Below, in pieces: positions 25,275 through 52,150 of a DNA stretch of 56,714 nucleotides. The stretch covers positions 1 through 56,714 of IMG/VR virus record IMGVR_UViG_3300030104_007656; one strand, 5' to 3'. Made by a program: the position numbers and the translations under genes. Position 1 is the stretch's first letter. Each line of letters opens with the position of its first letter. The notes under the pieces were generated by a model. It worked only from the letters and a program-made list of their open reading frames with translations, was not told the origin of the DNA and did no database searches. The DNA is from a virus.

Positions 25275-25298
25275 AGAAAAAGCCGCCCGAAGGCGGCT
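25275..25298 (-). terminator. Intrinsic terminator of tmRNA
   Basis: Read on the minus strand, AGCCGCC-TTCG-GGCGGCT forms a 7-bp GC-rich stem with a UUCG tetraloop at 25281-25298, followed directly by a T run (TTTTTC). It begins at the CCA end of the tmRNA, so it ends that transcript, and the UUCG loop also stabilises the 3' end before processing. Confidence 0.88.
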
Positions 25299-25621
25299 GG
25301 TGGAGGTAGGGAGAATTGAACTCCCGTCTTGTCTGGTTCCACAAAGAGGTCATTTACAAGGTTAGTAATGCTTTTATCGTCGGCAGAACACTTGACTAGA
25401 TCATTTTACTTATGGTGAAAATAATCAAAAACACTTAGAAATTCAAATACGGCTTTCTGTTTTTTGGCTGCCGTCGCCTCAAGCTAAGTCAGGTTATTAA
25501 GCTGCTTGTGCTAGTTGAAAATCGTCGTTTGCGATTAAAAGTTTAAGCGTTTTTAGTGAGCCACGCTTCCCTCACCCTTGCACCTTTTTCACTTTCCCAT
25601 CAATCGATACCGTTTACCCCC
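25298..25621 (-). ncRNA. ssrA: tmRNA (ssrA), complete, with tag ANDDFQLAQAA
   Basis: A 324-nt RNA on the minus strand. The two ends pair as an alanine-type acceptor: 5' GGGGGTA with 3' TACCTCC, including the G3-U70 wobble that marks tRNA-Ala identity, then discriminator A and an encoded CCA. The T arm is GGGAG-TTCAATT-CTCCC. The open tag frame at 25497-25532 (minus) reads ANDDFQLAQAA followed by TAA. tmRNA with SmpB rescues ribosomes stalled on broken mRNA and tags the peptide for proteolysis. The usual end is ALAA; here it is AQAA, so ClpXP recognition might differ. No smpB gene is in the window, so host SmpB is assumed. A sigma70-like promoter lies upstream and a terminator directly downstream. 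Confidence 0.95.
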
Positions 25622-32680: not shown

Positions 32681-33151
32681 ATGTTCAAACTCCTAACAAG
32701 AAGAATTACCCTCTTGGGCATTTTGGCCCTTGTTGCGGCTACTGCGTTACATTATCAAATAAAGGCTAACAGCCTATATAAGACTGTTTTTCCGAAAGAG
32801 TCTACATTTTATACCCCTGGACAACATAACAATTGTAAGTGGGTAGTACACATCAGCAGCGAAATAACAACAGAACCTGGGGATAACTCAGCCGCGCAAA
32901 TAGGAATACCAGAAGTAAGCAAAGATGGGTATATTGCCGGTATTTTGCAAAATGGTCCTGGTAACTCTCTCTTATTCGCTTTTAAATTACCAACCCAGTC
33001 TGATGAATCTCCTCCTATTATAATGACTTCTGTTTATAAACCACAGGATTTACCATTACAGCAGGTGAGATTCCGAGTATTCAATAGTACTGCGATGACA
33101 ATGATACTGTACTCAACATATGAAAAATGTATTGAGGCTACAATGAAATGA
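32681..33151 (+). CDS. Exported or membrane-anchored protein, unknown
   Basis: 156 aa. Residues 8-25 (RITLLGILALVAATALHY) are a signal peptide or N-terminal membrane anchor after a basic start. The mature part is beta-rich (NNCKWVVHISSEITTEPGDN, GYIAGILQNGPGNSLLFAF) with only C52 and C150, which could form a disulfide. AAGGAG lies 9 bases before the ATG. The stop overlaps the next gene's ATG (ATGA), so it is co-translated with the metal-motif/vWA lipoprotein and may act with it. Not assigned to a family. Confidence 0.72.
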   Translation: MFKLLTRRITLLGILALVAATALHYQIKANSLYKTVFPKESTFYTPGQHNNCKWVVHISSEITTEPGDNSAAQIGIPEVSKDGYIAGILQNGPGNSLLFAFKLPTQSDESPPIIMTSVYKPQDLPLQQVRFRVFNSTAMTMILYSTYEKCIEATMK

Positions 33152-34407
33152 GACGGTTAGTTTTCTTTCTGGTTCCCTTGGTTTTATCTGCCTGCCAAGC
33201 TTGTCTTGAAGACGACCAGTTAGTGCCGCTTGAGTGCCGCCCAGGAGAACAACAACTGTGTGATCACACAGGAGCTATATTATCATCTCTTAATCCAGAT
33301 GACCCACCGAAAAAAGCCGGACAATGTAGCTATGGAGTAATGACATGCAGTTTTGATGGCTGGTCAGAATGCATAGGGGCAATAGGACCAGAGCCAGAAG
33401 TTTGCGATGGATTAGATAATAATTGCGATGCACTTGTTGATAACAATTTCCCAGAAGAACATCAATTGTGCGGGTTTGTTGAGGGTGCTGATTACGGTGT
33501 CGGTATTTGTGCGCCAGGTGTTATGAAGTGTGATAATGGAAATCTTTATTGTGACGGACATGTCGGACCTGAAGAAGAAATATGCGACGGGCTTGATAAT
33601 AATTGTGACGGATCTGTAGATGAAGGTGTTGCTAATACTACAGCCATTGTTTGTTATGAGGGTCCTGATGGTACAATGGCTATCGGTGAATGCCGGGCAG
33701 GAGTTAGGTACTGTCAGGATGGTGGTTTTGATGGACCATGCGACGGACAAGTTTTACCGATAGAGGAAATCTGTGATAATCTTGATAACGATTGTGATGG
33801 TGAAGTTGACGAAGGTTTTGATACTCGTGGCGTAGATTTGGTTTTTGTTTTAGATATATCTGGTTCGTTTGAAGACGAGATAGACTCTATGATAGAAGGG
33901 ATCACGCCGCTTTTAGACGACCCGATAACGAGCAATTTTCGCTTTGGGCTTGCTGTCATAGGTAGACAGAGCAGTGGACAATTTGAACCACCAATTCATC
34001 GCCACTCTGAGATGGTAACTAACTTCGTTCCTGCTGATGAATTTTTAGAATATCTTGAAGCTGCTAAGCTTTTAGAGGATGGAGGAATTGAGCCCTCTAT
34101 TGATGCAGTATTATGGTCAATGAATGGTATGTATCCTTTTGGCTGGACCCCAGGGAGTCAAAAAGTCATAATATTAATGACAGATGAAATAGCTCAAACT
34201 ATTGTTAGTAATAATGTAGCACAAGTCAATGCTCATGCTGTTGATCACGGTTTTGAGATATTTGTTTTTGCTCTCCCTGAACATCATACATCATTCTTAC
34301 AGATGGTGAGAGGCGAGGGCGATAGGCTGTTTACACCGGCAGTAAATGCCGAAACTGTCTTTCAGCAAATTAGACAAATATTTGAGGACCTATGTATCGG
34401 TCGTTAG
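33148..34407 (+). CDS. MopE-motif / vWA lipoprotein
   Basis: 419 aa. Lipobox LSAC with C16 after a signal peptide. Three copies of the putative metal-binding motif (MopE-type, PF11617) occur at about residues 84-103, 144-163 and 206-224: EVCDGLDNNCDALVD, EICDGLDNNCDGSVDEG and EICDNLDNDCDGEVDEG. From residue 229 comes a von Willebrand A domain with MIDAS D236-I-S-G-S240 (VFVLDISGSFEDE). Such surface lipoproteins are typical of Myxococcota and relatives and uncommon in phages. Adhesion, or masking of the host surface against further infection, is possible. The convergent minus-strand gene overlaps its end by 4 bases. Confidence 0.85.
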   Translation: MRRLVFFLVPLVLSACQACLEDDQLVPLECRPGEQQLCDHTGAILSSLNPDDPPKKAGQCSYGVMTCSFDGWSECIGAIGPEPEVCDGLDNNCDALVDNNFPEEHQLCGFVEGADYGVGICAPGVMKCDNGNLYCDGHVGPEEEICDGLDNNCDGSVDEGVANTTAIVCYEGPDGTMAIGECRAGVRYCQDGGFDGPCDGQVLPIEEICDNLDNDCDGEVDEGFDTRGVDLVFVLDISGSFEDEIDSMIEGITPLLDDPITSNFRFGLAVIGRQSSGQFEPPIHRHSEMVTNFVPADEFLEYLEAAKLLEDGGIEPSIDAVLWSMNGMYPFGWTPGSQKVIILMTDEIAQTIVSNNVAQVNAHAVDHGFEIFVFALPEHHTSFLQMVRGEGDRLFTPAVNAETVFQQIRQIFEDLCIGR

Positions 34408-35501: not shown

Positions 35502-37016
35502 TTATGCACCTGCTTTGACTTGGAGCGTTAGAAGCTCTTCAGCGTTAGAGGAATCATAAACGAAGAGAAGGTCAACCTTATCTGTACCGTCTACCAACTT
35601 GAGCAGACCACCATTAGATGCATCACCCGCGAAAGCAAACTTAGCTTTGAAAGCATCAACGTTTGCTTGAACAGCAGCATCACCACCAGAGCGATCAACA
35701 GCTTCAGCAGCAATAAGTACACCCAAAGCATTATCAGCAGCCGTGCGAGTAGCACTGGCAACATTGATATCAGCAGCGCGAGCAGCAATCTCGGCATCAA
35801 CATTTGCGTCAATACTAGTATCAGCAGACAAACGTGATGATGCTTCAGCAGAAATTGCAGCACTACGTGCAGCAGATTCAGCAGCAAGATTGACACTAAT
35901 ACTAGCATCAGCAGATGCAGCTACTGATTTCTCAGAAGATACAACGCCTACACGATTAGAAATCTCGTTAGCAACTTGATTTATTAGTGCAACATCAGCA
36001 GCTTCACGAGCCGCAACTTCTGTAGACAATGCCGCATCCTCGGAAGAAATCTCGCTAGAGAGATTTGCACTGAGAAGAGTATCGCCTGAAGCCATGCTGG
36101 ATGCTTCTGCCGTTAATGCAGCAGCACGATCGCCAGCTTCGGTAGCAAGATTGTCACTGACAATAGTATCACCAGAAGCGTAAGCAGTTTCTTCGCTGTT
36201 GACAGCAACCTTACGAGAACTGATTTCAGAACCTAACAAGGTATCAATGGAAGTATCAGCAGCTTCGTGAGCAACAACCTCGGAAGAGATGCCACCAGAA
36301 CGAGCAGCGATTTGAATAGTCAAATCACCAGCAATTGCTGTATCCACGGATGCACGTGCAGTAGCTTCGGCAGCAACCAAAGTACCACGAGCGATTACAG
36401 CAGAAGAAATATCTTCAGACTGTGCTACGTCGCCTGACAACTGAGAACTAGTTTCAGAAGAAAGATCTCCGGATCTTGCAGCAACTTGTGCTAAAATCTT
36501 TGTTTCCAAAGATGTGTCAGCATTACCACGGTTTGTTTGCTCACCAGCAATCGCACCATTGCGAGCACCAGTCTCTACAGCAAGACGATTCTGAATGCTA
36601 ACATCAGCAGCACCACGTGATACTTCTTCAGCAGCAATATCAGCAATTCGTTCAGACTTGGCAGAACTCAAAGAGGCTGCCAAAACAACATCACCAGACT
36701 CACGTGAAGAGAGTTCTGAAGATAGAGCACCCGAGCGACTAGCAACTTGGGATGCGATATTCACTGAAATCAGATTATCACCTGCCAAACGCGAGGATGC
36801 TTCTGATGAAATTGCAGCATCTTCTGCTACCAATTCATTAGAAAGGTTTTCGTTAATAACAACGCGATGACTAGCTTCAGCACTAAACTGAGCGTTTAGG
36901 GTTACATCACCACCGCCTTCTGGAATAGCAACTTTTAGAAATTCACCTAGCTCGTCGTGAGCAAGCATGGACTTCTGAAGGACTAAGCCTTTTTTATTAG
37001 AAAGATATGTAGCCAT
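35502..37016 (-). CDS. Long repetitive fibre protein, paralog 1
   Basis: 504 aa. A conserved N-terminus (MATYLSNKKGLVLQKSMLAH) is shared with the next two genes. Residues about 50-445 are degenerate repeats with Ala, Ser and Asp-rich units such as AAEASSRLSADTSIDANV and EISNRVGVVSSEKSVAASAD, typical of alpha-helical, trimeric coiled fibre stalks in marine phages. The C-terminus is a small cap (KFAFAGDASNGGLLKLVDGTD). The codon bias and Ala/Ser richness are unlike neighbouring genes. It is the last of three similar genes. Probably a tail or head fibre that contacts the host. No receptor specificity can be deduced. Confidence 0.8.
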   Translation of the reverse strand: MATYLSNKKGLVLQKSMLAHDELGEFLKVAIPEGGGDVTLNAQFSAEASHRVVINENLSNELVAEDAAISSEASSRLAGDNLISVNIASQVASRSGALSSELSSRESGDVVLAASLSSAKSERIADIAAEEVSRGAADVSIQNRLAVETGARNGAIAGEQTNRGNADTSLETKILAQVAARSGDLSSETSSQLSGDVAQSEDISSAVIARGTLVAAEATARASVDTAIAGDLTIQIAARSGGISSEVVAHEAADTSIDTLLGSEISSRKVAVNSEETAYASGDTIVSDNLATEAGDRAAALTAEASSMASGDTLLSANLSSEISSEDAALSTEVAAREAADVALINQVANEISNRVGVVSSEKSVAASADASISVNLAAESAARSAAISAEASSRLSADTSIDANVDAEIAARAADINVASATRTAADNALGVLIAAEAVDRSGGDAAVQANVDAFKAKFAFAGDASNGGLLKLVDGTDKVDLLFVYDSSNAEELLTLQVKAGA

Positions 37017-37060
37017 TTTATTTTTGTCTCCTTATAAAATGATTATTACAAAAGTGCTAA

Positions 37061-38566
37061 TTATGCACCTTTGTGGAGTTCTAGAAGTACAACACCGGAA
37101 ACGGTGGTGAAATTCATGCGGACAACATCGGAACCATCAGTTAGGGTGAGATTTGCACCAGCAGCTTGTGTGACATCGCCACTGAAGCCGAACTTGGAAT
37201 CCAAGCTTGAAATTTCATTCATGATGACTGTATCAGCAGCCAAGCGAGATGAAGACTCAGAAGAGATTTCACCTGCTTTTACTACATCAGCAGATTGACG
37301 AACAGAAACTTCTTCAGACAAGTCTGATGAACGAGCACCAGCAGCGCCGATGATCTTGGCATCAAGACTGTTGTCTTTATTAAGACGTGTAGCTTCTTCG
37401 GCAATAACAAGAGCAACACGCTCTGAAATTTCAGAAGAAATGCTAGAATCAAGAGCACTGTCACCAGCGGCTCTGATTGTTGCAATTGACCCGACAGCAG
37501 TATTACGATCAGATTCTTCACCAGTAATAAGAGTCATGATGCTATTATCGGCAGCAAGACGAGAATTACCTTCAGTAGTAGAATCAGCAGCGCGAGCAGC
37601 TTCTTGAACATCAATAGCATCAGAAACAGCTTGATCAGCTACAACACGAGAAGATGCCTCGGTTGACACAGCTTGACTTCGTGCTGTTGCTTCAGCAGCA
37701 ATATTTACACTAATTGCACTGTCGGCAGCGCCACGTGCTGCTGCCAAAGAAACAAAAGCATCACTAGCAACGGCGAACTCTGTAGAAATTGCTTGAGACA
37801 AGAGAAGATCCTTAGAGGCACGAGCAGCAGCCAAAGATGTCATTTCAGAACCACGTGTACCAGCTTCAGATGCAATATTGGCAGCAATATTGTTATCACC
37901 GAGTAGGCGAGAAGAAGCTTCAGAAGACAAAGCTGCTGAGCGACCAGCAATTTCAGCAACCAACGCTGTAGAAAGCGCCTTGTCGGCAGCAGATCTTGTA
38001 GCATCTTGTGCAGAGTGTGCAGAAGCACGGTTAGTTGCTTCATCACTGATCAAGGTACTCAAAGAATTATCAGCAACCAAACGAACTGACATTTCAGTTG
38101 ATTGATCTTTCTCGGCATTACTAAGTTCAGCAGAGATTAATCCATCAAGTGTACTGTCAGCAGCAACACGAGAACTTACAGCCACAGAGAGATCAGTACT
38201 TCTATCACTTGACTCGGTTCCGAGTAGTGTAGAGATGCTGTTATCACCTGTAAGACGAAGAGCTTCTTCTGCAATGACAAGTGATGTACGTGAATCAACT
38301 TCACTAGAAATAGAACCACTTAGGACCACATCACCTGAAAGGCGTGAGCTACGCTCAGCAGAAGCAGCAATAGAACGAGCACTAGCTTGATTGCTAACTG
38401 CTGTTGCAATGCTATCACGTTCTGTTTTTTCTAGAGCCAATTTCTCATTGACGTTTTTAGATCCGTCTGAAACCAATAGGAGTGCAGCTAGTTCAGAGGA
38501 CGCATCAAGCATCTCCTTCTGTAGGACTAAACCATCTGCATCACCGGCATTAATATATGTAGCCAT
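37061..38566 (-). CDS. Long repetitive fibre protein, paralog 2
   Basis: 501 aa, nearly the same length as the flanking paralogs. N-terminal GLVLQKEMLDASSELAAL matches the paralog pattern GLVLQK-x-ML. Residues about 50-450 are Ala/Ser/Asp-rich repeats (AEATARSQAVSTEASSRVVA, EISERVALVIAEEATRLNKD). The C-terminal cap reads KFGFSGDVTQAAGANLTLTD, equivalent to that of paralog 1. The long open antisense frames across these genes are by-products of the repeat composition. AAGGAGG precedes the ATG. An independently varying receptor-binding fibre is the best guess. Confidence 0.8.
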   Translation of the reverse strand: MATYINAGDADGLVLQKEMLDASSELAALLLVSDGSKNVNEKLALEKTERDSIATAVSNQASARSIAASAERSSRLSGDVVLSGSISSEVDSRTSLVIAEEALRLTGDNSISTLLGTESSDRSTDLSVAVSSRVAADSTLDGLISAELSNAEKDQSTEMSVRLVADNSLSTLISDEATNRASAHSAQDATRSAADKALSTALVAEIAGRSAALSSEASSRLLGDNNIAANIASEAGTRGSEMTSLAAARASKDLLLSQAISTEFAVASDAFVSLAAARGAADSAISVNIAAEATARSQAVSTEASSRVVADQAVSDAIDVQEAARAADSTTEGNSRLAADNSIMTLITGEESDRNTAVGSIATIRAAGDSALDSSISSEISERVALVIAEEATRLNKDNSLDAKIIGAAGARSSDLSEEVSVRQSADVVKAGEISSESSSRLAADTVIMNEISSLDSKFGFSGDVTQAAGANLTLTDGSDVVRMNFTTVSGVVLLELHKGA

Positions 38567-38633
38567 TTTTTATTTCCTCCTTAGAAAATAAATCTGTAAT
38601 CTAAACAACCAAATAATACAAAACCAACAAAGA

Positions 38634-38657
38634 GTTCTTGAATCTTAGCTCAAGAAC
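38634..38657 (-). terminator. Hairpin at stop of third fibre gene
   Basis: GTTCTTGA and TCAAGAAC form an 8-bp perfect stem around an 8-base loop spanning the stop codon region of the third fibre gene. On the minus strand it is followed by TCTTTG, so the T run is weak. It may slow or partly end transcription between the fibre genes, or protect the mRNA end. Confidence 0.4.
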
Positions 38658-40153
38658 ATCTTCACTAGAGTTGCATTTACCTTGACAAACTTAGCTGTTA
38701 CGGAATTACCGGAAGTAGCATCAGTCATTACGAAATTACCACCACCAGCACCGTCACCACTGTAAGCAAGTCTATCAGTAAGAACTTTTAGTTCAGAACT
38801 TCTAGCAGCATCACCAGCAGAGCGATCACTAATAGCGGTATTCAAAACAGCAGCCAAGGAATTATCAGCAGCCAAAGCAGCAGCTTCTTCAGCGATAACA
38901 AGTGCTGTACGTGCAGAAACTTCTGTAGACAATGCGCTTGATTCAGTGGCATCACCAGCGATACGAGCAGTACTAGCATCGGCAATATCAGAACCACGAT
39001 CAGAAATACCATTGGTCAACTTGAGAGCAGCAGATGTATCACCAGCAGCGCGCAAGACTTCTTCGGCAGTAATAGCAGAAACGCGAGCAGAAACAGCAGT
39101 TGAAAGATCTGCGGTAACTACGACATCACCAGATTGACGAGAACTCGTCAAGGCTGTGTGGTCTGTAGCACGAGCAGCAGCTTCGGCATCAATCTCACCC
39201 TGTAGAAGGAGATCAACTGAATTACGAGCAGCAGCTTCAGCAGTAACGGCAGCTATACGAGCAGCTTTTGCAACAGATAGAGCAGAACTATTAGAAGAAT
39301 CACCAGCTTCACGAGCAACGACTTCCTCAGAAATCTTAGCAACGCGATTAGCAACAGCAGCGTCCTTATCAGCAACAAGTGTTACATCAACACTACCACG
39401 GGCAGTGATTTCAGCAGCAATTGCATTAGAGTATGCAAGTTCTTCAGCATCTAGAGCGGCAGAAATAACTGCATCACCAGATTCACGCTCACTCAAGCGA
39501 ACACTCAAATCGGAAGTGCGATTTACTACTTCTGAAGAAAGAGTAGCAGCCAAAAGAGTATCTCCAGAAAGTCTGGAAGAAGCAACAGCGGCTAAGCCAG
39601 AATCTTCGTTACCTAGTTCTGTTGTCAACTCACCGTCAACAGCAGTATCGCCAGCGCCGCGAGCATTAACTGCCACGACCATCAAAGAAGCACGTGCATC
39701 TTCAGCATCACTAAGCTTGGTATCAAGACTTGAGTCTTCAGTACCACGCGTACCAGCTTCAGCAGCAACAGCAGCATTCATTGCTAACAATTCAGCAGAA
39801 ATAGCTGTTGATTGAGCAGTATCACCTGCTTGGCGAGCAGCAACCATAGCATCAAGATCAACAGTTGCTCGTGAAACTTCAGCAGACAATGCTGAGCTTT
39901 GAGTATTATCACCCGTACCACGAGCATTAATTGTTACTGTCATGTCAGATGCACGAGCAGAAACTTCAGAACTTAAGGATGCTGAAACAACACCTCTTGC
40001 TGTTGATGCTTCGCTAAAAGCAAGGTTTAGTTTTTTATCTAAACCAGACTCGGGTTCGGAAACCATTAAAACTTCAGCAAGATCAGCGGATGAATCAAGC
40101 ATTTTCTTTTGTAAAACTAAACCAGAATTGGATGCGGCGGTAATATAAGCCAT
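38645..40153 (-). CDS. Long repetitive fibre protein, paralog 3
   Basis: 502 aa. Starts MAYITAASNSGLVLQKKMLD with the same GLVLQK-x-ML anchor as the two downstream paralogs. Residues about 55-440 are repeats of Ala/Ser/Asp-rich helix-forming units (AAVASSRLSGDTLLAATLSS, ARNSVDLLLQGEIDAEAAAR). The C-terminal cap is RLAYSGDGAGGGNFVMTD with a different last strand (AKFVKVNATLVKMFLS) from the others. First gene of the fibre operon, preceded by AAAAGGAGG. The shared N-terminus indicates one attachment site on the virion for all three, while the different repeat surfaces and caps suggest alternative receptor contacts. Confidence 0.8.
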   Translation of the reverse strand: MAYITAASNSGLVLQKKMLDSSADLAEVLMVSEPESGLDKKLNLAFSEASTARGVVSASLSSEVSARASDMTVTINARGTGDNTQSSALSAEVSRATVDLDAMVAARQAGDTAQSTAISAELLAMNAAVAAEAGTRGTEDSSLDTKLSDAEDARASLMVVAVNARGAGDTAVDGELTTELGNEDSGLAAVASSRLSGDTLLAATLSSEVVNRTSDLSVRLSERESGDAVISAALDAEELAYSNAIAAEITARGSVDVTLVADKDAAVANRVAKISEEVVAREAGDSSNSSALSVAKAARIAAVTAEAAARNSVDLLLQGEIDAEAAARATDHTALTSSRQSGDVVVTADLSTAVSARVSAITAEEVLRAAGDTSAALKLTNGISDRGSDIADASTARIAGDATESSALSTEVSARTALVIAEEAAALAADNSLAAVLNTAISDRSAGDAARSSELKVLTDRLAYSGDGAGGGNFVMTDATSGNSVTAKFVKVNATLVKMFLS

Positions 40154-40526: not shown

Positions 40527-40614
40527 TGGAGGAAGGAGAGGGATTCGAACCCTCGGTGGGTTTCCCCACACAGCATTTCCAATGCTGCACCATCGGCCTC
40601 TCGGTCATCCTTCC
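40527..40614 (-). tRNA. tRNA-Ser(GGA)
   Basis: 88 bases with encoded CCA. Acceptor GGAAGGA pairs with TCCTTCC, the anticodon stem-loop is CAGCA-TTGGAAA-TGCTG with anticodon GGA (reads UCC/UCU), a long variable arm follows (TGTGGGGAAACCCA), and the T arm is GAGGG-TTCGAAT-CCCTC. The discriminator base appears to be U rather than the G usual in bacterial tRNA-Ser, which is odd. It is the last tRNA before the terminator. Confidence 0.9.
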
Positions 40615-40667
40615 ATATATAAGCAGTTTGAAGACATACTTAGGTCATACGCTAGAATCGCACTCTA

Positions 40668-40743
40668 TGGTGGAGAGTATCGGAGTCGAACCGATCACCC
40701 CCTGCGTGCAAAGCAGGCGCTCTACCAGATGAGCTAACTCCCC
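40668..40743 (-). tRNA. tRNA-Ala(TGC)
   Basis: 76 bases with encoded CCA. Acceptor GGGGAGT pairs with ACTCTCC and includes the G3-U70 wobble that alanyl-tRNA synthetase recognises. The anticodon loop is TTTGCAC with anticodon TGC (reads GCN, mainly GCA). D and T arms are intact (AGCTCATCTGGTAGAGC; ATCGG-TTCGACT-CCGAT). Confidence 0.93.
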
Positions 40744-40781
40744 AGCACCATAACTAGAAGACGGACACATAAAAACATTAT

Positions 40782-40901
40782 TCACTTCTTTTTAAACCTA
40801 AAATCAATCCACGACTTTATGTAATACATTAAACCTAGCCAGACTGAAAAAACAAGCCCATCTGTGTAACTTAGATTATTCCATACATCTAGAAAATTCA
40901 A
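40782..40901 (-). CDS. Tiny membrane protein between tRNA genes
   Basis: 39 aa, from a TTG start at 40901 with a perfect AGGAGG five bases upstream, ending at TGA 40782. The product is MNFLDVWNNLSYTDG, then LVFSVWLGLMYYIKSWIDF and a basic RFKKK tail: one membrane helix with positive end. The strong ribosome-binding site argues for translation. It is too short to compare with a family. It lies between tRNA-Ala and tRNA-Thr genes, an unusual place for a protein gene. Confidence 0.6.
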   Translation of the reverse strand: MNFLDVWNNLSYTDGLVFSVWLGLMYYIKSWIDFRFKKK

Positions 40902-40944
40902 TTATACCTCCTGAAGCAGTTTATGGACTTGCTTAGGTCTTATA

Positions 40945-41020
40945 TGGAGCCGCTTATCCGACTTGAACGGATGACCGTCGGTTTACAAAACCGAAGCTCT
41001 ACCAACTGAGCTAAAGCGGC
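40945..41020 (-). tRNA. tRNA-Thr(TGT)
   Basis: 76 bases with encoded CCA. Acceptor GCCGCTT pairs with AAGCGGC, the anticodon stem-loop is TCGGT-TTTGTAA-ACCGA with anticodon TGT (reads ACA), and the T arm is ATCCG-TTCAAGT-CGGAT. The discriminator is T. It lies 2 bases from the next tRNA, so they are processed from one transcript. Confidence 0.92.
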
Positions 41021-41022
41021 GT

Positions 41023-41099
41023 TGGTAGGGGGCCAGAGACTTGAACTCTGAACCTACTGATTATGAGTCAGTTGCTCTAACCAATTGAGCTAACCCCCC
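41023..41099 (-). tRNA. tRNA with CAT anticodon, likely Ile2 (AUA) or elongator Met
   Basis: 77 bases with encoded CCA. Anticodon stem-loop ACTGA-CTCATAA-TCAGT; anticodon CAT. It lacks the three G-C pairs of initiator tRNA, so it is not fMet. The acceptor is GGGGGGT/GCCCCCT with G1-U72 and T7-G66 wobbles. A TilS-like gene about 1.5 kb away converts C34 of tRNA-Ile2 to lysidine so that it reads AUA, and AUA codons are common in this AT-rich genome. Therefore I favour Ile2, but sequence alone cannot separate it from tRNA-Met. Confidence 0.85.
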
Positions 41100-41115
41100 A
41101 CAGTTATATTATACT

Positions 41116-42006
41116 CTATTCTTTCTTTTGTTTATCGTTTTTTGGAAAACCGTTTTTGACTAATAATTTACCCATTTGCACATAATCTTTATTGATTTCA
41201 AAACCTGCCCATTCATAACCTCTTTGCTCGCAGACAAAACATTCACTACCAGTTCCAGCAAAAGGAATCAAAACAGTTGCAGTCTGCCCCTCTTCAATAC
41301 AAGCATCTAACAGAGTTTCTGTAACCTTGACTGGTTTTTGAGTGGGATGAGAAATCAGGTCACTAATATCCGCTTCTTGGTTTTTCATTTCTTTTTTCTG
41401 GCGAGAGGTAATAAGCTTATCCATTGAAGGCGAATAAAAGAATCTTTCTTTAGAGCCAGCACCACCAGCTAAAGATGGAGAACAAATAACATCTCTAGGA
41501 AGAGCACCCTTATCATTTACAGTGTAGAGAGTTTCCTCACTGTCACCAAATCTTCCTTTAGTGCTTGGTCGTTTCCTTTTCTTATCTTTGTAGCCTTTAA
41601 TAAAACGATCTGTATATGGAACCCTCACCTGATCTCTGTAGAACGTTTTATCTTCTTTCCAACAGCACAGGATAGATTCATGAGTTCTTTGCCAAAAGTT
41701 TAAGCTGGGAACAGTTTTGTTAGTATAGTGCCAAACTAGCCAACGTTGGTTTAGGTTAATATTGACTGATAAGTGTGCTAACACTTCGGAAAACCCATAA
41801 ACATACATTGTTCCATTTGGTTTCAAAATTCGTTCACATTCTGTTAACCACTGTTGAGCCCAGGTAATATATTCAGATATTTCAAGTTTTGTCTTATTAT
41901 TACCGTAATCTTTGCCTATATTGTACGGTGGATCTAGGATAATACAATCCACACTATCTGATTTGACTTTTTTGAGTCCTTCAATTACATCAATATGATA
42001 AATCAT
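41116..42006 (-). CDS. DNA adenine/cytosine-N4 methyltransferase (beta-type)
   Basis: About 296 aa from the ATG at 42006 (MIYHIDVIEGLKKVK). Two GTG codons just upstream are less likely because GGAG lies 5 bases before the ATG. Catalytic motif IV DPPY follows SVDCIIL near residue 25, and the S-adenosylmethionine motif I FAGTGSE lies near residue 250, after HPTQKP. This order (IV before I) is the beta class of amino-methyltransferases, which methylate adenine N6 or cytosine N4. The next gene upstream encodes a restriction-nuclease-like protein, so the two may form a restriction-modification pair, or the enzyme may protect phage DNA. Target sequence unknown. Confidence 0.88.
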   Translation of the reverse strand: MIYHIDVIEGLKKVKSDSVDCIILDPPYNIGKDYGNNKTKLEISEYITWAQQWLTECERILKPNGTMYVYGFSEVLAHLSVNINLNQRWLVWHYTNKTVPSLNFWQRTHESILCCWKEDKTFYRDQVRVPYTDRFIKGYKDKKRKRPSTKGRFGDSEETLYTVNDKGALPRDVICSPSLAGGAGSKERFFYSPSMDKLITSRQKKEMKNQEADISDLISHPTQKPVKVTETLLDACIEEGQTATVLIPFAGTGSECFVCEQRGYEWAGFEINKDYVQMGKLLVKNGFPKNDKQKKE

Positions 42007-42027
42007 CACCACTCCACAGGGAGTATT

Positions 42028-42642
42028 TTACCACATTTCAATTTCTTTGATAAATGGCAAGTCAATTAATTTGTAATAGTTGTTGATGCCGCCAACAATA
42101 TAATCATCATTGTCAGCTTTCTCACCGCCTTGTTGTTTTCGGAACGGTTCTCTGTCTAATTTGTTGATATACTCAACAAAATCTTCTTTTTCCATGAAAT
42201 ATGCACGAACCACTGGCGGTTGTATGTCGCGAACCTTCTCAGAGAGAAGTTGATTCTCCTGATTGGGATTTGGATTGATGCCAAAAAAGATAAAACGCTC
42301 CCAATCTTTCTCAGCAGCAATATGATTAAAGGTGAACCCATCTGGTTGAATTAGTTTTTTACCAGTTTTTGAATTCTTGGGCGAATTTGCCAGAGAGAAC
42401 TTGATTTCTGTTTTATAACCATCAATGATTCTGTCATGCCCAGGATTTGTAGGTGATTCAACCGTGGCACCTAATTGCAACTCCATAAAACCCTCAACAT
42501 ACTCTTCGCCGAAGTGACCTTTTTGTTTCGGGTCCATCCGGGGATAATCCTCAAAGTAAGTACCTTTCCAATTATTGTGTAGAGAGCGATCAATATACTC
42601 TTTAAGGTTTTTATTTTCAAAGATTTTTTGATGTAGACTCAT
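42028..42642 (-). CDS. Restriction endonuclease-like PD-(D/E)XK protein
   Basis: 204 aa. A helix with acidic residues (FGEEYVEGFMELQLG), then NPGHD70RIIDGYKTE79IK81F, gives the D...E-x-K core of type II restriction enzymes. FNHIAAEKDWERFIFFGINP resembles the conserved beta strand after the active site in several such enzymes. It is directly upstream of a beta-type methyltransferase (21 bases) and overlaps the TilS gene by 26 bases. AAGGA lies 8 bases before the ATG. Together they look like a type II restriction-modification pair carried by a phage; degradation of host or rival phage DNA is possible. The nuclease call is by motif only. Confidence 0.72.
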   Translation of the reverse strand: MSLHQKIFENKNLKEYIDRSLHNNWKGTYFEDYPRMDPKQKGHFGEEYVEGFMELQLGATVESPTNPGHDRIIDGYKTEIKFSLANSPKNSKTGKKLIQPDGFTFNHIAAEKDWERFIFFGINPNPNQENQLLSEKVRDIQPPVVRAYFMEKEDFVEYINKLDREPFRKQQGGEKADNDDYIVGGINNYYKLIDLPFIKEIEMW

Positions 42643-43237
42643 TTTTGTATTCCTTTTCTACGAGTTTACGAAATGTTTTTTCAACGCCTGGATTTACGAT
42701 CCGAGCATGGGGCATAATATCGTGCCTAATAATACTTCTCATGAATTTCCTGTCTGCATTCCCTGGGTCTATAAGAAACGGTACTTCTTTCCTGTTACAC
42801 CAGTCCTCCAGAGAGTATTTAGACGTAGAGATAAATGGTCTAATAACGTTTTTGTTGTTATAGGGGATAATCTTACCCTGACCGTGTATAGAAGAGAATA
42901 AAAACCACTCAATCACATCGTCTAAATTATGACCCGTAACAATCGGCATATTGAAACTATGGAAGAACTTATACCGCTCATCACGCCAATGCTCTTCAAG
43001 TGATTTTTTCGGCGGACAAGAATTATAATTAATTCCAATCACAACAGGGATATCTCTTCTATCACAAAAATCTTTTACAAACCTTTTACACTTTTTGCCG
43101 AACTCTGTACCATGATCAAAATAACAAGCTGTTACATCGTGGTTATTATTGAGGAAATCTAAAATAGCCATAGAGTCGGGACCGCCACTGACTGCAACCC
43201 CTAACTCTCTTGGTAAATTTCCTAAGATTCGTAACAT
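42617..43237 (-). CDS. tilS: Short TilS-like tRNA(Ile)-lysidine synthetase
   Basis: 206 aa from the ATG at 43237, with AAGGAG about five bases upstream. A longer frame begins inside the neighbouring tRNA-Arg gene and is not credible. MLRILGNLPRELGVAVSGGP, continuing DS, is the PP-loop (SGGPDS). TACYFDHGTEFG, VTGHNLDDVIEWFL and RPFISTSKYSLEDWC match the catalytic core, including the HNLDD motif. TilS ligates lysine to C34 of tRNA-Ile(CAU) so it reads AUA. The protein has only the N-terminal catalytic domain (E. coli TilS has about 430 aa). It would serve the tRNA(CAT) encoded nearby or the host tRNA. Confidence 0.9.
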   Translation of the reverse strand: MLRILGNLPRELGVAVSGGPDSMAILDFLNNNHDVTACYFDHGTEFGKKCKRFVKDFCDRRDIPVVIGINYNSCPPKKSLEEHWRDERYKFFHSFNMPIVTGHNLDDVIEWFLFSSIHGQGKIIPYNNKNVIRPFISTSKYSLEDWCNRKEVPFLIDPGNADRKFMRSIIRHDIMPHARIVNPGVEKTFRKLVEKEYKNESTSKNL

Positions 43238-43247
43238 CTCAACTCCT

Positions 43248-43324
<77 letters not shown>

Positions 43325-46625: not shown

Positions 46626-46653
46626 ATAATATCACAGAGTGAGATAATGTCAA
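46626..46653 (-). promoter_or_regulatory. Sigma70-like promoter overlapping cysteine synthase stop
   Basis: On the minus strand TTGACA (46648-46653) followed after 16 bases by TATTAT (46626-46631), a near-consensus promoter. It overlaps the last codon of the cysteine-synthase gene and drives the early-type gene cluster downstream. Confidence 0.72.
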
Positions 46654-47624
46654 GAAATACGAATAAAATCTATTATTTTTACGTTTCTGGATAAAGATTC
46701 TTCAGAATTAGAACACAGGTCAGTTGAAAGATATTTCTTATTATCGTCACACAGTATAGTGGCAGTCAGATCATCTGGGAACTCCGAAGCCTTCAGAATA
46801 GCTGAAAAAACGTTAGCGCCTGATGATATTCCTACTGAAAGTCCTACTTTATTCAGTTGTCGGGCTATATTAATAGCATCTTTGTCCGACACTCTTATAA
46901 TTGGACTTAGGGCATCTAGATTTAGTATCTCTGGTACAAAACTGTCGCCTATTCCTTCAATTCTATGCCCTTTATCCTTGTTATTGATCGGAAATACCGG
47001 AAAAGCACGAAAATCCTTATTTCTATCGGTAAAATAGTGATGAAAGCCCATTATTGTACCGCCAGTGCCTGCCCCGGCAACAAAAATCTTCAATTTAGGC
47101 AAATTGTTGTCTTCTAGGGCTTGTTTGATTTCCGGTGCAGTAGTATTCATATGTGCAAAGACATTCCATGCATTATTGAACTGTTTTGGTCCAAAATAGC
47201 TCTTTTTCTTGCTTTTTTTAGCTGCAAGCTCAATACAATGCATAAATCCACCGTCTTTTTCACTTATTTCTATTAATTTTGCACCATAGAACCTTAAAAG
47301 AGACTTTCTCTCTTCAGAAAGCCAGTCTGGCATGTATATTTCAACTTTGCTACCCAAATAAGCGCCCATTGCAGCAAAGGCAATGCCTGTATTACCGCTG
47401 GTAGCCTCTACGATGGTATCACCTTCATCAAATTGAGATAAATTCTCTGCGCTCTCTAGGATTTGCAAAGCCATTCGGTCTTTTATACTACCAGAAAAGT
47501 TCCATGCTTCGTATTTTGCATAAACTACGACTTTTTTGCCATCTAATTCGGCAATTATCTTAATGAGTGGAGTGTTACCAACGAAATTTCTTAATTTCCG
47601 TATCTTCTGTGCAAATTCAGACAT
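46650..47624 (-). CDS. cysK: PLP-dependent cysteine synthase-like enzyme
   Basis: 324 aa, the CysK length. The PLP lysine is K48 in FSGSIKDR, the substrate loop TSGNTG is at 75-80, the phosphate-binding GTGGT at 186-190, and ISSGAN near 268 binds the cofactor. IEGIGDSFVPE near 222-231 is typical of O-acetylserine sulfhydrylases. These enzymes make cysteine from O-acetylserine and sulfide; the cystathionine beta-synthase branch is also possible. All catalytic residues visible are intact. A phage-borne copy would be an auxiliary metabolic gene supplying cysteine for sulphur or glutathione needs. It follows PrkA by about 10 bases. Confidence 0.85.
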   Translation of the reverse strand: MSEFAQKIRKLRNFVGNTPLIKIIAELDGKKVVVYAKYEAWNFSGSIKDRMALQILESAENLSQFDEGDTIVEATSGNTGIAFAAMGAYLGSKVEIYMPDWLSEERKSLLRFYGAKLIEISEKDGGFMHCIELAAKKSKKKSYFGPKQFNNAWNVFAHMNTTAPEIKQALEDNNLPKLKIFVAGAGTGGTIMGFHHYFTDRNKDFRAFPVFPINNKDKGHRIEGIGDSFVPEILNLDALSPIIRVSDKDAINIARQLNKVGLSVGISSGANVFSAILKASEFPDDLTATILCDDNKKYLSTDLCSNSEESLSRNVKIIDFIRIS

Positions 47625-47634
47625 GCTCTATGCC

Positions 47635-49578
47635 TTAGCTATCTCTCCACAGATTATTAGCAGCAAACTTGATGACTTCTTCCGCTGAATCTTCATTATA
47701 TCCATACTCTTCAATCAAAGTTGCTACCATTTCGTTGTATTTTCCTTGTTGCTTCTTGTCGCGACTCTTAGATTTAGTCACAATTCGTGAGATTTCCTTG
47801 ACAGAAGAGGTTAGCTTGCTTTCAATCGCTTCACGAAGCGGAGCATAACTCCTCCAGTCAACTTTCTCACCACGACGGAGCTTAGAAAACATATAGGCTG
47901 TAATGTCAACACGGAAATTTTCTTTAGCAGTACCAATAATAGCAATTTGCTCCTCAATTGATGCCATAAACGTCTCATCTGGTGAGATTTCTTCGTTTGT
48001 TACATTATCTTTCACGGTTGACATGTTGACATATGCTTCTGCATGGTCCAAGTAGTTGTTGAAAAGTGCTTCTGCCTGCTCATCATAGGCAGAAACAAAA
48101 GCCTTGGTGATTTCCTTCTCTAGAATGCTCAAGTACTCGTCATGAAGCGTCTTACCTAAGAAGTCTAAGTAGCGATTGCGGTCATCTTCAACTACAATCT
48201 GGTCCTTGACCTGTTTGATAAGCGCATCACGGATGGAAATTGGAGTTACCATGTTCTTATCACTGTCAGATAATGAGGAATCAATAGCCTTCATAATGAA
48301 TCGCGTAGAGATTCCGGTCATACCTTCGTCTCTAGCTTCATCTCTGAGGTCATTAATATCTATTTTCTTGACATGTCCCTTTTCAATGACTTCTTCACCA
48401 TCATAAAGTTTCATCTTGGTTAGTGGATCAACTTTATTTGACAAGTGAAGACGACTCAAAACAGCAAACATAGCAGCAATTTCAAGAGTATGCGGCGCAA
48501 TGTGACCATCAAAGTCAGATAAACCTAGCATTTTTTCATAAATCTTTTGTTCCTCGGAAACTTCCAAGCAGTAAGGAACATTCACACGAACAATACGATC
48601 AAGAATTGCTTCATTTGTATTTTCAGATTTGAATTTATTCCATTCAGCCTCATTACAGTGAGCTAAGATTACACCATCAAAGTAAATCATTGGACCTTTG
48701 CCTGGTGATGGTACTGCTTTTTCCTGAGTTGCTGTAATCATTGTATGTAAGAATTCAATTTCGTTCTTGAAAACCTCAACAAACTCAACGATACCACGGT
48801 TGCCAACATTAAAGGCACCATTCAAAGACAAAACACGAGGATCATCCTCAGAGTATAAATCTAATTTAGAAATATCTTCACTACCAACCAAAATTGTGAC
48901 ATCTTGACTATTGGCATCCATTGGAGGGACAACACCGACACCCCGACGACCACGTACTGAGAAAGATGACTGAGCTACAGGCATGGCTGTATAATCATTA
49001 TCAAACTCTTCTTTTAGTCTGTGCCGACAAACAGGGCATAAATCACCTTCTATTTTGATTCCATAAATCTTTTCAAACTCTGGCCTCAAAGATCTTGGGA
49101 TAAGATGTAGCGGTTCTTCGTGAATTGGGCACCCTTCAATGTGATACATTGGTTCACACTCTTCTAGTGCTGATTTGATATGCTCCATGAGAGCAGACTT
49201 ACCTGCACCAACTGGACCTAGTAATAGCAGCACCTGGCGGCTTTCTTCGCCCTTGAGAGATGCAGAGCGCAAGAATCTCATGATTTTTGCTAGTGATCTT
49301 TCCATTCCAAAGAATTTGCTTTGGAAGTAATCATATGTTCTTACTTCCTCTCCGCCAAACAATTTATTGCAGCGGGTATCTGATTTAGACATTCTTGTAA
49401 TACCTTGACCAGCAAGGACTTCATACAAGCGTCTGTGTGCTAATGAGGTGATAGACGGATCTTTCTCAATCTCTTGGAGATATTCTTGTAAATTACCGCT
49501 AAACTTTTCAACTGTTTTCTTTTCTCTGTGTTTTTCAACCAGTTTTAAGAATTTGCTTGATTTATTTTCTTTTGGCAT
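47635..49578 (-). CDS. prkA: PrkA-type serine protein kinase (YeaG-like)
   Basis: About 647 aa from the ATG at 49578. A TTG nine bases upstream is an alternative start. The PrkA AAA-type N-terminal domain has Walker A GPVGAGKS near residue 125 after YFQSKFFGMERSLAKIMRFL, an internal zinc-like set (CPIHEE, CPVCRHRLKEE), a SVRGRRGVGVVPPMDAN loop and VILAHCNEAEWNKFKSENTN. PrkA/YeaG phosphorylates target proteins during nitrogen starvation and sporulation. Here it directly follows SpoVR (6 bases) and DUF444, as a complete three-gene set. The whole set within a phage is most unusual. Intact length argues it is functional. Confidence 0.92.
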   Translation of the reverse strand: MPKENKSSKFLKLVEKHREKKTVEKFSGNLQEYLQEIEKDPSITSLAHRRLYEVLAGQGITRMSKSDTRCNKLFGGEEVRTYDYFQSKFFGMERSLAKIMRFLRSASLKGEESRQVLLLLGPVGAGKSALMEHIKSALEECEPMYHIEGCPIHEEPLHLIPRSLRPEFEKIYGIKIEGDLCPVCRHRLKEEFDNDYTAMPVAQSSFSVRGRRGVGVVPPMDANSQDVTILVGSEDISKLDLYSEDDPRVLSLNGAFNVGNRGIVEFVEVFKNEIEFLHTMITATQEKAVPSPGKGPMIYFDGVILAHCNEAEWNKFKSENTNEAILDRIVRVNVPYCLEVSEEQKIYEKMLGLSDFDGHIAPHTLEIAAMFAVLSRLHLSNKVDPLTKMKLYDGEEVIEKGHVKKIDINDLRDEARDEGMTGISTRFIMKAIDSSLSDSDKNMVTPISIRDALIKQVKDQIVVEDDRNRYLDFLGKTLHDEYLSILEKEITKAFVSAYDEQAEALFNNYLDHAEAYVNMSTVKDNVTNEEISPDETFMASIEEQIAIIGTAKENFRVDITAYMFSKLRRGEKVDWRSYAPLREAIESKLTSSVKEISRIVTKSKSRDKKQQGKYNEMVATLIEEYGYNEDSAEEVIKFAANNLWRDS

Positions 49579-49583
49579 GTGAT

Positions 49584-50900
49584 TCAAAACTCCCAGGTGT
49601 CTTCTTCAATAACTGTGGTGAACTTAATAGTGCCTGCCCACAGTTCATTGATATAACCAAACACTTTATTCGCTTCTGACAATTCTAGGTCCCTTCCGTC
49701 GTGCTCATGTTCCAATATTAGTGTACCATCTTTTAATAATTCTTTTACAACAATCACGGGCACTGAATTTAGTCCTACATTCTTAATTAGATCGTCACGA
49801 ATAGTTCTCCAACTATCTTCTCCTGATACGTCTCGGATCCTAGTGACTCCTTCGCGATTATCAAAAGAATATGTAAACAAATTCAGATCCTTGCACAACT
49901 CTAGGTCAAAATAAGTTTTTATAAAAGTTTCGTCATTATGTGTTTCTCTGGCACGCAAACATTCTTCAAAACCGTGAACTTCTTCAATGCGTTTGAAGAT
50001 CTTGTACCCAAGGTGATAAGGGTTTACACGACCCAAGTGAGGTCTTATGACTTGGTTATGCAGGCGTATAAAGGCTAGATAATAATCATCTGGGATCCCA
50101 AGTTTTTGAACTATCTTTTCGTGCATCAAAACGGCCCAACCCTCGTTCATGACTTTTGTCAAAGCTTGAGGAACAAAATAGCTAGACTCATCAGCCACAA
50201 TATTAATAAGATCTTTTTCCCAGGGTTCTAGAAAACGATTATGATCAGCTATAAACCTAAGAAGGTTCTGGTCTGGCTCTAGAGGTATTTTATTTATATT
50301 GAAATCTTCCCACTTACCAGTGGTATCATTTAGCATAAGATTTTTATAATATTCTTTTAGCTTTTTATGATCTCGGCGTGCTACGCCTGGTGTTCTTGGT
50401 ACTTGAAATCTTATAGCGTGGCACGCATCAAGTATCCTCTCAACCTTATCTATACCTATACTGGGGTCTTCCATATACTTCTTGACGCGTTTACCCGCAG
50501 CTTTGAAGCGATCAATTGCCGTTTCGGCTCTGGTCTCGGTAAACATACGGTTGTTCTTGAAAAAGTCACTATGACCGACGCAATGTGCCATTGTAAGTAT
50601 GTGGGTAGACATTGGGTTTTCTGTCATAAGATATGCAATACTGGGGTTTGAATTTATAATCATTTCATATGGTAGTCCGGACATGCCGAGATTATACTCT
50701 GTTTGGATACGGTCAAAAGACTTTCCATAAGACCAGTGACGATAATGAGTTGGAAGCCCGGAATAGGCCATGTGTCCAATCATTTCTTTATAATCACATA
50801 TTTCATAAGAAATTGGGTACCAATCCAACGTAAACTCTTCACCAAGTTTGCAGATCTTATCATCCCAATCTTGAAGTTCTTCCATAGACCAATCAGCCAT
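49584..50900 (-). CDS. spoVR: SpoVR family protein (YcgB-like)
   Basis: 438 aa. Hallmark regions: DWYPISYEICDYKEMIGHMA, GLPTHYRHWSYGKSFDR, YNLGMSGLPYEMIINSNPS, AHCVGHSDFFKNNRMF, and ADESSYFVPQALTKVMNEGW. SpoVR is conserved in spore-formers and many Gram-negatives (E. coli YcgB), where it acts with PrkA/YeaG and YeaH in the stress response. The molecular role is still unclear. The start overlaps DUF444's stop by one base (TAATG), and its stop lies 6 bases before PrkA's ATG. No parts appear to be missing relative to the family length (about 430-510). Confidence 0.92.
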   Translation of the reverse strand: MADWSMEELQDWDDKICKLGEEFTLDWYPISYEICDYKEMIGHMAYSGLPTHYRHWSYGKSFDRIQTEYNLGMSGLPYEMIINSNPSIAYLMTENPMSTHILTMAHCVGHSDFFKNNRMFTETRAETAIDRFKAAGKRVKKYMEDPSIGIDKVERILDACHAIRFQVPRTPGVARRDHKKLKEYYKNLMLNDTTGKWEDFNINKIPLEPDQNLLRFIADHNRFLEPWEKDLINIVADESSYFVPQALTKVMNEGWAVLMHEKIVQKLGIPDDYYLAFIRLHNQVIRPHLGRVNPYHLGYKIFKRIEEVHGFEECLRARETHNDETFIKTYFDLELCKDLNLFTYSFDNREGVTRIRDVSGEDSWRTIRDDLIKNVGLNSVPVIVVKELLKDGTLILEHEHDGRDLELSEANKVFGYINELWAGTIKFTTVIEEDTWEF

Positions 50901-52090
50901 TAGTTCTTTGCTCCAAATAAACGTTTAAAGGATTTCCAGATATCTTTGTGGTTTGCAAGCCTTATTCTTTTTAGAGACTTATCTTCCACCATTGAAACCC
51001 AGTCCCATAACTTCTTCTGAGTCTCTAATCCATAGAACATACCGCCGGCATCATCATATGCCCTGAAGTCTCCAATTTCGGTATAACACATCATCTGGTT
51101 CACTTCTTTTAGTTCTCTGAGAGCCTCAATAGCTTCTTTGTTGTCAATAGCCCAGTTATCGCCATCACCGCAATAAAACGTATAAATATTCCAATTATTC
51201 GGATGGTATCTTTTATTAATGATTTCCTGCACTTTTCTTAGTCCAGTGGATACAAGAGTACCACCAGCAGGCACTTGAGTAAAGAATTGCTCTTCATTTA
51301 CTTCTTTTGCCTCGGCTGTATGGGAAACAAAAACAACATCAACTTCAGAATAACGATGATTCAAAAACTGATACAACAAAAAGAAAAAGCTTCTAGCCAG
51401 GAATTTTTTAGATTTTGTCATAGACCCCGAAACATCCATAACAAAGAATATTACAGCCGTCGTGTTCTCTTTCTGTACTGGTGCGATATGTTTATAACGT
51501 AGATCACTTTCGTGAAAGGTGAATCGCTCACCGCTCTCTGGGTCATAGCTGCCGGACTTGATGGCTGCTTTTTTTCTTCTGATCTTTTGTTTTATTGTTT
51601 CTTTCTTAGATAAGCGAGGGCGAATACCATAAGGTCGCTTTCCTTTACGCTTCATCTTTTCTTCGGTGATGAATTTAAATCTTTTCTTTTCTAGGTCCGG
51701 AAGATTTAGATCAGCAAACAGATACTCTGCCAGTTCTTCTAGAGACATTTCTATTTCGTAAGATTCTTCGCCTGGCTTATTGCCGGCTCTTTCTCCTGGC
51801 TGTTGTCCTCTTTGTTGTTTGCGTCCTATTTGTTGTCCTTCTTTAACATCAACGCCTTCAGCGGAGCCCACACGTTTGTTTTTTTGATTATTTCCGTAAA
51901 CAAAGCGGTGCTCTTTGATCCCCTTCACAGGGATCCTTACTTTCTTTTTACCGCTCTGTCCAATTATACTTTCTTCAGCAACAACATCTCGGATACTATC
52001 CTTGATAGCTCTTTCAATCTTTTTACGGTGACGAGTACGGTCGCCCGCCGCACGATCAGCAATTGTTTTATGTTCTTTGAAAGTACTCAT
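50900..52090 (-). CDS. DUF444 / YeaH-type vWA protein
   Basis: 396 aa. N-terminal basic region (FKEHKTIADRAAGDRTRHRK) typical of YeaH/DUF444, then a von Willebrand A domain with MIDAS D219-V-S221-G-S223 (FFVMDVSGSMTKSKKF), and SHTAEAKEVNEEQFFTQVPA. In E. coli yeaH is co-transcribed with the PrkA-type kinase yeaG. Here it is first of a DUF444-SpoVR-PrkA operon. The linker between residues 70 and 110 is Gln/Gly/Arg-rich. The MIDAS is intact. Probably binds partner proteins through a metal; the partner here would be the SpoVR or PrkA protein. Confidence 0.9.
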   Translation of the reverse strand: MSTFKEHKTIADRAAGDRTRHRKKIERAIKDSIRDVVAEESIIGQSGKKKVRIPVKGIKEHRFVYGNNQKNKRVGSAEGVDVKEGQQIGRKQQRGQQPGERAGNKPGEESYEIEMSLEELAEYLFADLNLPDLEKKRFKFITEEKMKRKGKRPYGIRPRLSKKETIKQKIRRKKAAIKSGSYDPESGERFTFHESDLRYKHIAPVQKENTTAVIFFVMDVSGSMTKSKKFLARSFFFLLYQFLNHRYSEVDVVFVSHTAEAKEVNEEQFFTQVPAGGTLVSTGLRKVQEIINKRYHPNNWNIYTFYCGDGDNWAIDNKEAIEALRELKEVNQMMCYTEIGDFRAYDDAGGMFYGLETQKKLWDWVSMVEDKSLKRIRLANHKDIWKSFKRLFGAKN

Positions 52091-52150
52091 GTATTATAGA
52101 CCCCGTAGTAAATAGTTTATTCAGGGACTAAACAAAAAGACTATTATTTA

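Follow-up and report, generated by a model that had tools for sequence, protein, structure and literature searches.

The window analysed here is the whole of IMG/VR virus record IMGVR_UViG_3300030104_007656, a contig of 56.7 kb (56,714 nucleotides) without end repeats, and on its minus strand lie three adjacent genes encoding a DUF444 protein (YeaH/YhbH-like), a SpoVR protein (YcgB-like) and a PrkA protein (YeaG-like). Comparison with viral and bacterial relatives indicates that this trio is a phage-owned, vertically inherited and slowly evolving gene set and not a recent capture. By analogy with the E. coli proteins, we tentatively favour, among several competing explanations, the reading that its products form an ATP-driven AAA+/vWA module which would act as a metabolic brake on the infected host.

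The three genes and their sequence motifs

A sequence-only reading of this DNA had described the trio as complete and so it proved, the genes being adjacent, co-directional and full-length over exactly 52090-47635 on the minus strand, with all three Pfam families matched. The 1-base overlap which that reading saw between DUF444 and SpoVR is present, but the gap between SpoVR and PrkA is of 5 bases (TGA ATCAC ATG) and not of 6. The genes and motifs are placed as follows.

50900..52090 (-), DUF444 / YeaH-YhbH-like vWA protein, 396 aa, gene 1 of the trio; Pfam PF04285, 1.3e-104
51419..51436 (-), DUF444 metal ion-dependent adhesion site (MIDAS) motif D219-V-S221-G-S223-M, completed by T278 and D309 further along the chain
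49584..50900 (-), SpoVR / YcgB-like protein, 438 aa, gene 2; Pfam PF04293, 4.1e-117
50571..50585 (-), SpoVR H106-C-V-G-H110, candidate metal-binding helix (model residues 97-116), both His invariant among 32 sequences
50121..50144 (-), SpoVR E253-G-W-A-x3-H260, remainder of the candidate metal site (model helix 249-267)
47635..49587 (-), PrkA / YeaG-like AAA+ protein, gene 3; Pfam AAA_PrkA, 1.2e-141, and PrkA C-terminal domain, 1.2e-78
49195..49218 (-), PrkA Walker A G124-P-V-G-A-G-K130-S131, intact and invariant across relatives; K130 corresponds to E. coli YeaG K116
48289..48303 (-), PrkA R429-F-I-M-K433, in helix 428-441 past the AAA+ core; R429 invariant, K433 corresponding to YeaG K426
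52109..52118 (-), AAACTAYTTA leader motif just upstream of DUF444, common to the window's close relatives

A full-length match together with the MIDAS residues places the first protein in the DUF444 / YeaH-YhbH family, the top NCBIfam match being TIGR02877 YhbH (2e-113), under the YhbH equivalog cut-off. The second belongs to the SpoVR family, with the PF04293 match spanning residues 3-378 and the C-terminal sub-domain falling slightly under its cut-off, and the third has both PrkA domains and a Walker A motif in which K130 is invariant. PrkA is 650 aa long with the mechanical TTG start and 647 aa with the ATG at 49578, which is the start used by close homologues. The sequence-only reading had also considered the Walker A (GPVGAGKS) and MIDAS (D-x-S-x-S...T...D) residues intact; this is upheld, and both sets are invariant across relatives, as seen for D219, S221, S223, T278 and D309 of DUF444 in 31 viral and bacterial sequences. 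In SpoVR, E253, G254, A256 and H260 are likewise invariant (32 sequences). The GC content of the trio (0.394) is close to that of the window (0.389) and thus the trio is not a compositional island.

Distribution among viruses

A scan of IMG/VR with the PrkA protein found at least 163 viral stretches with close relatives, from which 80 loci with 63-96% identity were fetched. The order DUF444-SpoVR-PrkA was found in all 79 viral loci with three genes (81 examined), no gene was interrupted, and the trio was complete on each contig of sufficient length. As these loci had been selected by PrkA, a second, independent scan was made with SpoVR, giving at least 376 viral relatives; 79 of the 80 loci fetched had all three genes, again in this order, the eightieth being cut by the contig end.

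The nearest relative is a 178 kb contig (L012/G001) with a PrkA 96% identical to that of the window and the same neighbours on both sides. It carries a T4-type capsid protein (gp23) and a terminase, as do nine further viral contigs (114-294 kb) with the trio, whilst both genes are absent from the 57 kb window; the trio thus resides in a real phage and the possibility that the contig is chromosomal or chimeric was rejected. The nearest named gp23 proteins are from Flavobacterium phage immuto (47%), Rhodothermus phage RM378 (44%) and a Microcystis phage, with cyanophages more distant, from which we conclude by sequence comparison that the carriers are distant T4-like phages, some of them jumbo-sized. 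An apparent bacterial owner, 'Methylococcaceae bacterium TMED69' (NHDW01000006.1; a GTDB species genome), was discounted, because the 306 kb contig in question combines a T4-type gp23 with a trio of the viral order and is thus phage DNA that ended up in a metagenome bin. With a cellular homologue, a patchy distribution among related phages and purifying selection, the genes have the properties of auxiliary host-derived phage genes.

Ancestry, constraint and gene order

Separate trees of PrkA, SpoVR and DUF444 each place the marine viral sequences in one clade (SH-aLRT support of 100, 100 and 99, respectively), which answers the sequence-only reading's question of whether a phage clade exists. 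The sister of the viral clade in the PrkA tree is a Clostridia-type clade, and the same Clostridia-centred bacterial sequences surround it or adjoin it in the trees of SpoVR and DUF444. The nearest cellular PrkA relatives among the matches listed are of Clostridia type, with 53-62% identity. No closer cellular donor was found in about 300 Pseudomonadota or about 300 Bacteroidota genomes or, for Bacillota, among the matches listed from one genome scan, though a closer one may exist; in Pseudomonadota, 79 other genomes with PrkA scored 596-809 bits, compared with at least 1065 bits for viral PrkA, and in Bacteroidota PrkA occurred in two genomes only.

The pairwise distances of the three genes are strongly intercorrelated (r of 0.86-0.91 over 78 loci) and track those of gp23 on the 12 contigs which have it (r of 0.58-0.77). 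PrkA is clearly more conserved than the capsid protein, for example at 89% compared with 64% between loci L012 and L018. Ratios of nonsynonymous to synonymous substitution (dN/dS) against the nearest relative were 0.018 for PrkA, 0.022 for SpoVR and 0.028 for DUF444, figures which are rough since dS is near saturation, and the relatives show no recent or broken copies of the kind that could have undermined the idea of a functional phage module.

Amongst bacterial loci with all three genes the order is PrkA-DUF444-SpoVR in 62 of 64 and the viral order in none; in the remaining two, both from Paenibacillus, SpoVR and DUF444 are on the opposite strand. The viral order DUF444-SpoVR-PrkA is therefore a rotation of the bacterial one. 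The trios of Thermus phages and of some huge phages are separate from the marine clade, and so the trio has entered phages several times, with the rotated order in two of these lineages, for which either chance or a shared constraint could be the cause.

Predicted structures of the products

The PrkA model (predicted local distance difference test, pLDDT, of 83) consists of an AAA+ core followed by a C-terminal part, residues 411-650, which is all-helical and without the sheet of a kinase N-lobe. Its top fold matches in the PDB are AAA+ proteins, including CbbQ, NorQ, the NorQ-NorD vWA complex, BchI and Lon, and the core is of the CbbQ/NorQ type (CbbQ 5c3c and NorQ 9qh4/9qh8, with target TM-scores of 0.65-0.69); RavA was among the weak profile matches. 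No protein kinase was found among the 50 best PDB fold matches, and the predicted fold does not have the beta-sheet N-lobe and P-loop of a Hanks-type Ser/Thr kinase. By sequence, PrkA matches over its full length a solved structure named 'Serine protein kinase' (9xip, 3e-96), the full-length PrkA entries in the PDB being 9xip, 9xiq and 9xir. Purified PrkA of Bacillus anthracis oligomerises with ATP, has negligible kinase or protease activity and lacks a kinase P-loop (PMC13001217). The name 'stress kinase', which the sequence-only reading gave to this system, is thus doubtful.

As the predicted fold of PrkA is AAA+ and the MIDAS of DUF444 is complete, the pair resembles the machines in which an AAA+ protein works with a vWA partner, such as NorQ-NorD, and the two proteins may bind each other. 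Past the AAA+ core, R429 may be a sensor-2-like Arg. In the SpoVR model (pLDDT of 85), H106, H110, E253 and H260 lie on two helices and plausibly form a metal site; no PDB fold match was found at E<=0.001, so that this candidate site is proposed from the conservation of the four residues. In bacteria, RNA-bound SpoVR has been found in sporulating B. subtilis (PMC12456014), and YcgB, YeaH and YeaG are co-conserved across species (PMC2375023).

A possible metabolic brake

In E. coli, YeaG and YeaH jointly quiesce metabolism under nitrogen starvation and have been called a metabolic brake; yeaG/yeaH mutants remain active, with poorer survival and earlier regrowth (PMC4664914, PMC10954441). The sequence-only reading had supposed that a phage copy could keep a starved host metabolically active. 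The E. coli results run the other way, as it is the deletion mutant that stays active, and a phage copy, if it acts alike, would slow and preserve the infected cell instead. We infer that PrkA would serve as an AAA+ motor, DUF444 as its MIDAS-bearing vWA adaptor and SpoVR as a third component with a candidate metal site, the three acting together in infection and doing for the phage what the bacterial trio does for bacteria. The infected cell would be pushed into a slowed, stress-tolerant state, and a starved marine host may in this way be kept alive long enough for the slow infection of a phage with a large genome. YeaG K116, K426 and R232 are needed in E. coli (PMC4664914, PMC10954441), and the two lysines are conserved in phage PrkA as K130 and K433.

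Some points weigh against this reading. The residue aligned with YeaG R232 is a Ser in phage PrkA, as it is in a Clostridium relative; one viral clade has the trio embedded in its cluster of structural genes, which would suit a late or virion-linked role equally; and the functions of the bacterial trio vary by species, from starvation to sporulation and osmotic stress.

Genomic context and alternative explanations

The trio is kept together whilst its surroundings vary, four different genomic contexts having been found. In the window's clade it is followed by a small conserved gene and a gene resembling the HAD family and phosphomannomutases, often with a CysK-like gene in between. In the window, the gene directly after PrkA, at 46650-47624 (-), encodes a CysK/CysM-like pyridoxal phosphate enzyme which scores below the curated cysteine synthase cut-offs, and the HAD/phosphomannomutase-like gene also lies immediately downstream; the former was rejected as a fourth member of the module, being absent beside the trio in several close relatives. 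The neighbours named by the sequence-only reading were not recovered: the window proteins scanned, which did not include every open reading frame (ORF) in every library, yielded no sigma factor, and the baseplate-wedge-like gene, at 5529-7322, is 40 kb away.

Elsewhere the contexts are quite different. In a clade of 17 loci (L024/L059) the trio is part of the capsid-to-tail cluster, with neck and gp15-like genes immediately before it, the order in L059 being gp23, neck, gp15-like, f13, the trio, two further genes, sheath, tube and hub. Six loci, L054 among them, have the trio by itself on one strand and its neighbours on the other. A large clade of long genomes has a divergent GroEL-like gene and a PIN-PhoH gene within a few kb downstream; the GroEL-like protein, of about 440 aa with weak HSP60 matches, is encoded shortly after PrkA (L045:6494-7855) and has homologues in 34 loci. 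Amongst relatives by gp23 with the same structural cluster, the trio is absent from that place in 28 of the 30 loci with room for it, and PrkA was not found in 15 related contigs, including ones of 185 kb and 159 kb. Since related phages do without it, the trio is an accessory module outside the general virion plan. The place between the neck/f13 gene and the tail sheath (L059:2725-19614) is a variable cargo slot, nearly empty in the short contig L287, which has a bare f13-sheath junction, holding the trio and a large variable protein in L059, and with Laminin_G-domain genes after f13 in L341.

These arrangements bear most directly on the alternative of a role in proteostasis or virion assembly, with the AAA+/vWA pair remodelling proteins of the phage or the host at a late stage of infection and serving as a dedicated assembly chaperone of head, neck or tail. 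We consider this unlikely but the most serious competitor. It would account for the 17 loci with the trio directly downstream of neck or tail-stabiliser genes (gp23 being upstream where the contig reaches), for the tail sheath that follows in several loci and the 4-base overlap with the preceding structural gene in some, for the nearby GroEL-like gene in 34 loci, and for the Thermus phages, where the trio lies between the minor head protein and TerL in Lalka27b and near TerL in phiYS40. However, most gp23 relatives build the same cluster without it, and in other clades gp23 is 70-110 kb distant or the trio occupies the opposite strand by itself. A bolder variant, also unlikely, is that phages acquired the whole machine on at least two occasions, rotated it to put PrkA at the end and, in one marine clade, built it into the head-neck-tail cluster. 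As a dedicated AAA+ device of late infection or of the virion, it would then have a role unseen in bacteria and might set the metabolic state of the cell where virions mature or of the next one that they enter.

That PrkA is instead a kinase which phosphorylates host proteins and so redirects the cell is improbable. The family name of serine protein kinase, the conserved K433, and a B. subtilis phosphorylation report and E. coli K426A phenotype cited for kinase activity (PMC13001217, PMC4664914) would speak for it, but the all-helical C-terminal region, the fold matches and the B. anthracis results described above do not, and as K433 lies four residues after the sensor-2-like Arg, its mutation may act through the ATPase function. 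Less probable again is a role in counter-defence, in which the trio would silence host toxin-antitoxin systems or stress responses that would otherwise abort infection. Starved E. coli needs YeaG for the repression of mqsRA and dinJ/yafQ (PMC4664914) and the yeaG mutation E414K was fixed in a T7-resistant E. coli line (PMC10044975), although each of these links is indirect and both concern a single host, and no defence genes were seen near the trio, though no PADLOC search was made. Finally, the existence of related phages without the trio would suit passive cargo, a recently captured host operon without a selected function, but a dN/dS of about 0.02, the lack of broken copies, a deep viral clade and an order conserved through rearrangements make this so improbable that the constraint on all three genes already contradicts it.

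Other features of the window

The AAACTAYTTA element is conserved just upstream of the trio in the window (52091-52140 (-)) and in L012-L022 and L040. Several relatives allow it to pair with the start-codon region or place it in a hairpin loop near the ribosome-binding site, so it may, tentatively, be a translation-control hairpin. It was rejected as a phage-wide promoter, as the window has one exact copy against 0.57 expected by chance and no excess of copies with one mismatch.

Further from the trio, a tmRNA gene confirmed by Rfam (25298-25621 (-), tag ANDDFQLAQAA) adjoins a PIN-PhoH2 gene at 23929-25230, and five tRNA genes (Ser, Ala, Thr, Met and Arg) at 40527-43324 (-) flank or adjoin genes for a DNA methyltransferase and a TilS-like protein (42617-43282). 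A stretch of higher GC content and reversed AT skew at 35502-40153 (-) contains three ORFs of about 500 aa, at least some of them interrelated; the two that were scanned gave no family match. The contig is mostly coded on the minus strand, and a plus-strand stretch at 32681-34407 (+) encodes a vWA/MopE-metal-binding protein.

Significance and comparison with known systems

Most ocean bacteria are starved, and how phages reproduce in starved bacteria is an open question. That phages keep a conserved copy of a bacterial starvation and sporulation machine under strong constraint suggests that they directly control host quiescence, and the trio would give phages a candidate switch over the starvation state of the host. 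Bacterial PrkA has variously been called a kinase, a protease and neither, and the phage trio offers a fresh handle on this poorly understood system: hundreds of phage sequences, the AAA+/vWA reading and a natural rotation of the operon allow clear tests of the machine's identity and of the interdependence of its parts.

The sequence-only reading knew of no standard phage module with all three genes, yet Thermus phages phiYS40, phiLo and MN1 and the Lalka phages carry the trio, as do huge phages. Individual genes were already known in phages, and the Thermus trio has been annotated piecemeal in records; Ralstonia phage RsoM2USA is reported to have PrkA and SpoVR (PMC8504454). In the virome of the Eastern Tropical North Pacific (ETNP) oxygen-minimum zone, spoVR is listed as an auxiliary gene and is the most abundant 'sporulation' gene (PMC8940887); as here it is in marine viruses, but in the parts of that report available to us it is read as sporulation, and the linked trio, its clade and its order are not described in them. 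No description of the linked trio as a deep, constrained and rotated marine phage lineage was found in the literature searched, which covered few subscription journals.

In phiYS40, phiLo, MN1 and Lalka27b the order is vWA/DUF444-SpoVR-PrkA, the same as in the marine phages. Their PrkA shows about 33% identity, and their sequences form a separate, much more diverged lineage on long branches, which in the PrkA tree groups with Paenibacillaceae/Alicyclobacillus-type and Chloroflexota sequences, a placement which indicates a separate acquisition. The huge uncultured phages LR745206, LR756504 and LR756511 all have the trio in the bacterial order, unlike the marine phages, and in the first two it is of proteobacterial type. 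The bacterial counterparts, the PrkA-YhbH(DUF444)-SpoVR operon of Clostridia and others and yeaGH with ycgB in E. coli, consist of the same three full-length families, from which the phage trio differs in being rotated, in forming a separate viral clade and in being phage-borne. Amongst better-understood machines the closest are NorQ-NorD, CbbQ-CbbO, RavA-ViaA and BchI-BchD: the predicted core of phage PrkA matches CbbQ, NorQ and BchI, and its putative partner DUF444 has the MIDAS vWA motif, whereas PrkA adds an all-helical C-terminal domain and SpoVR is a component with no counterpart in those systems.

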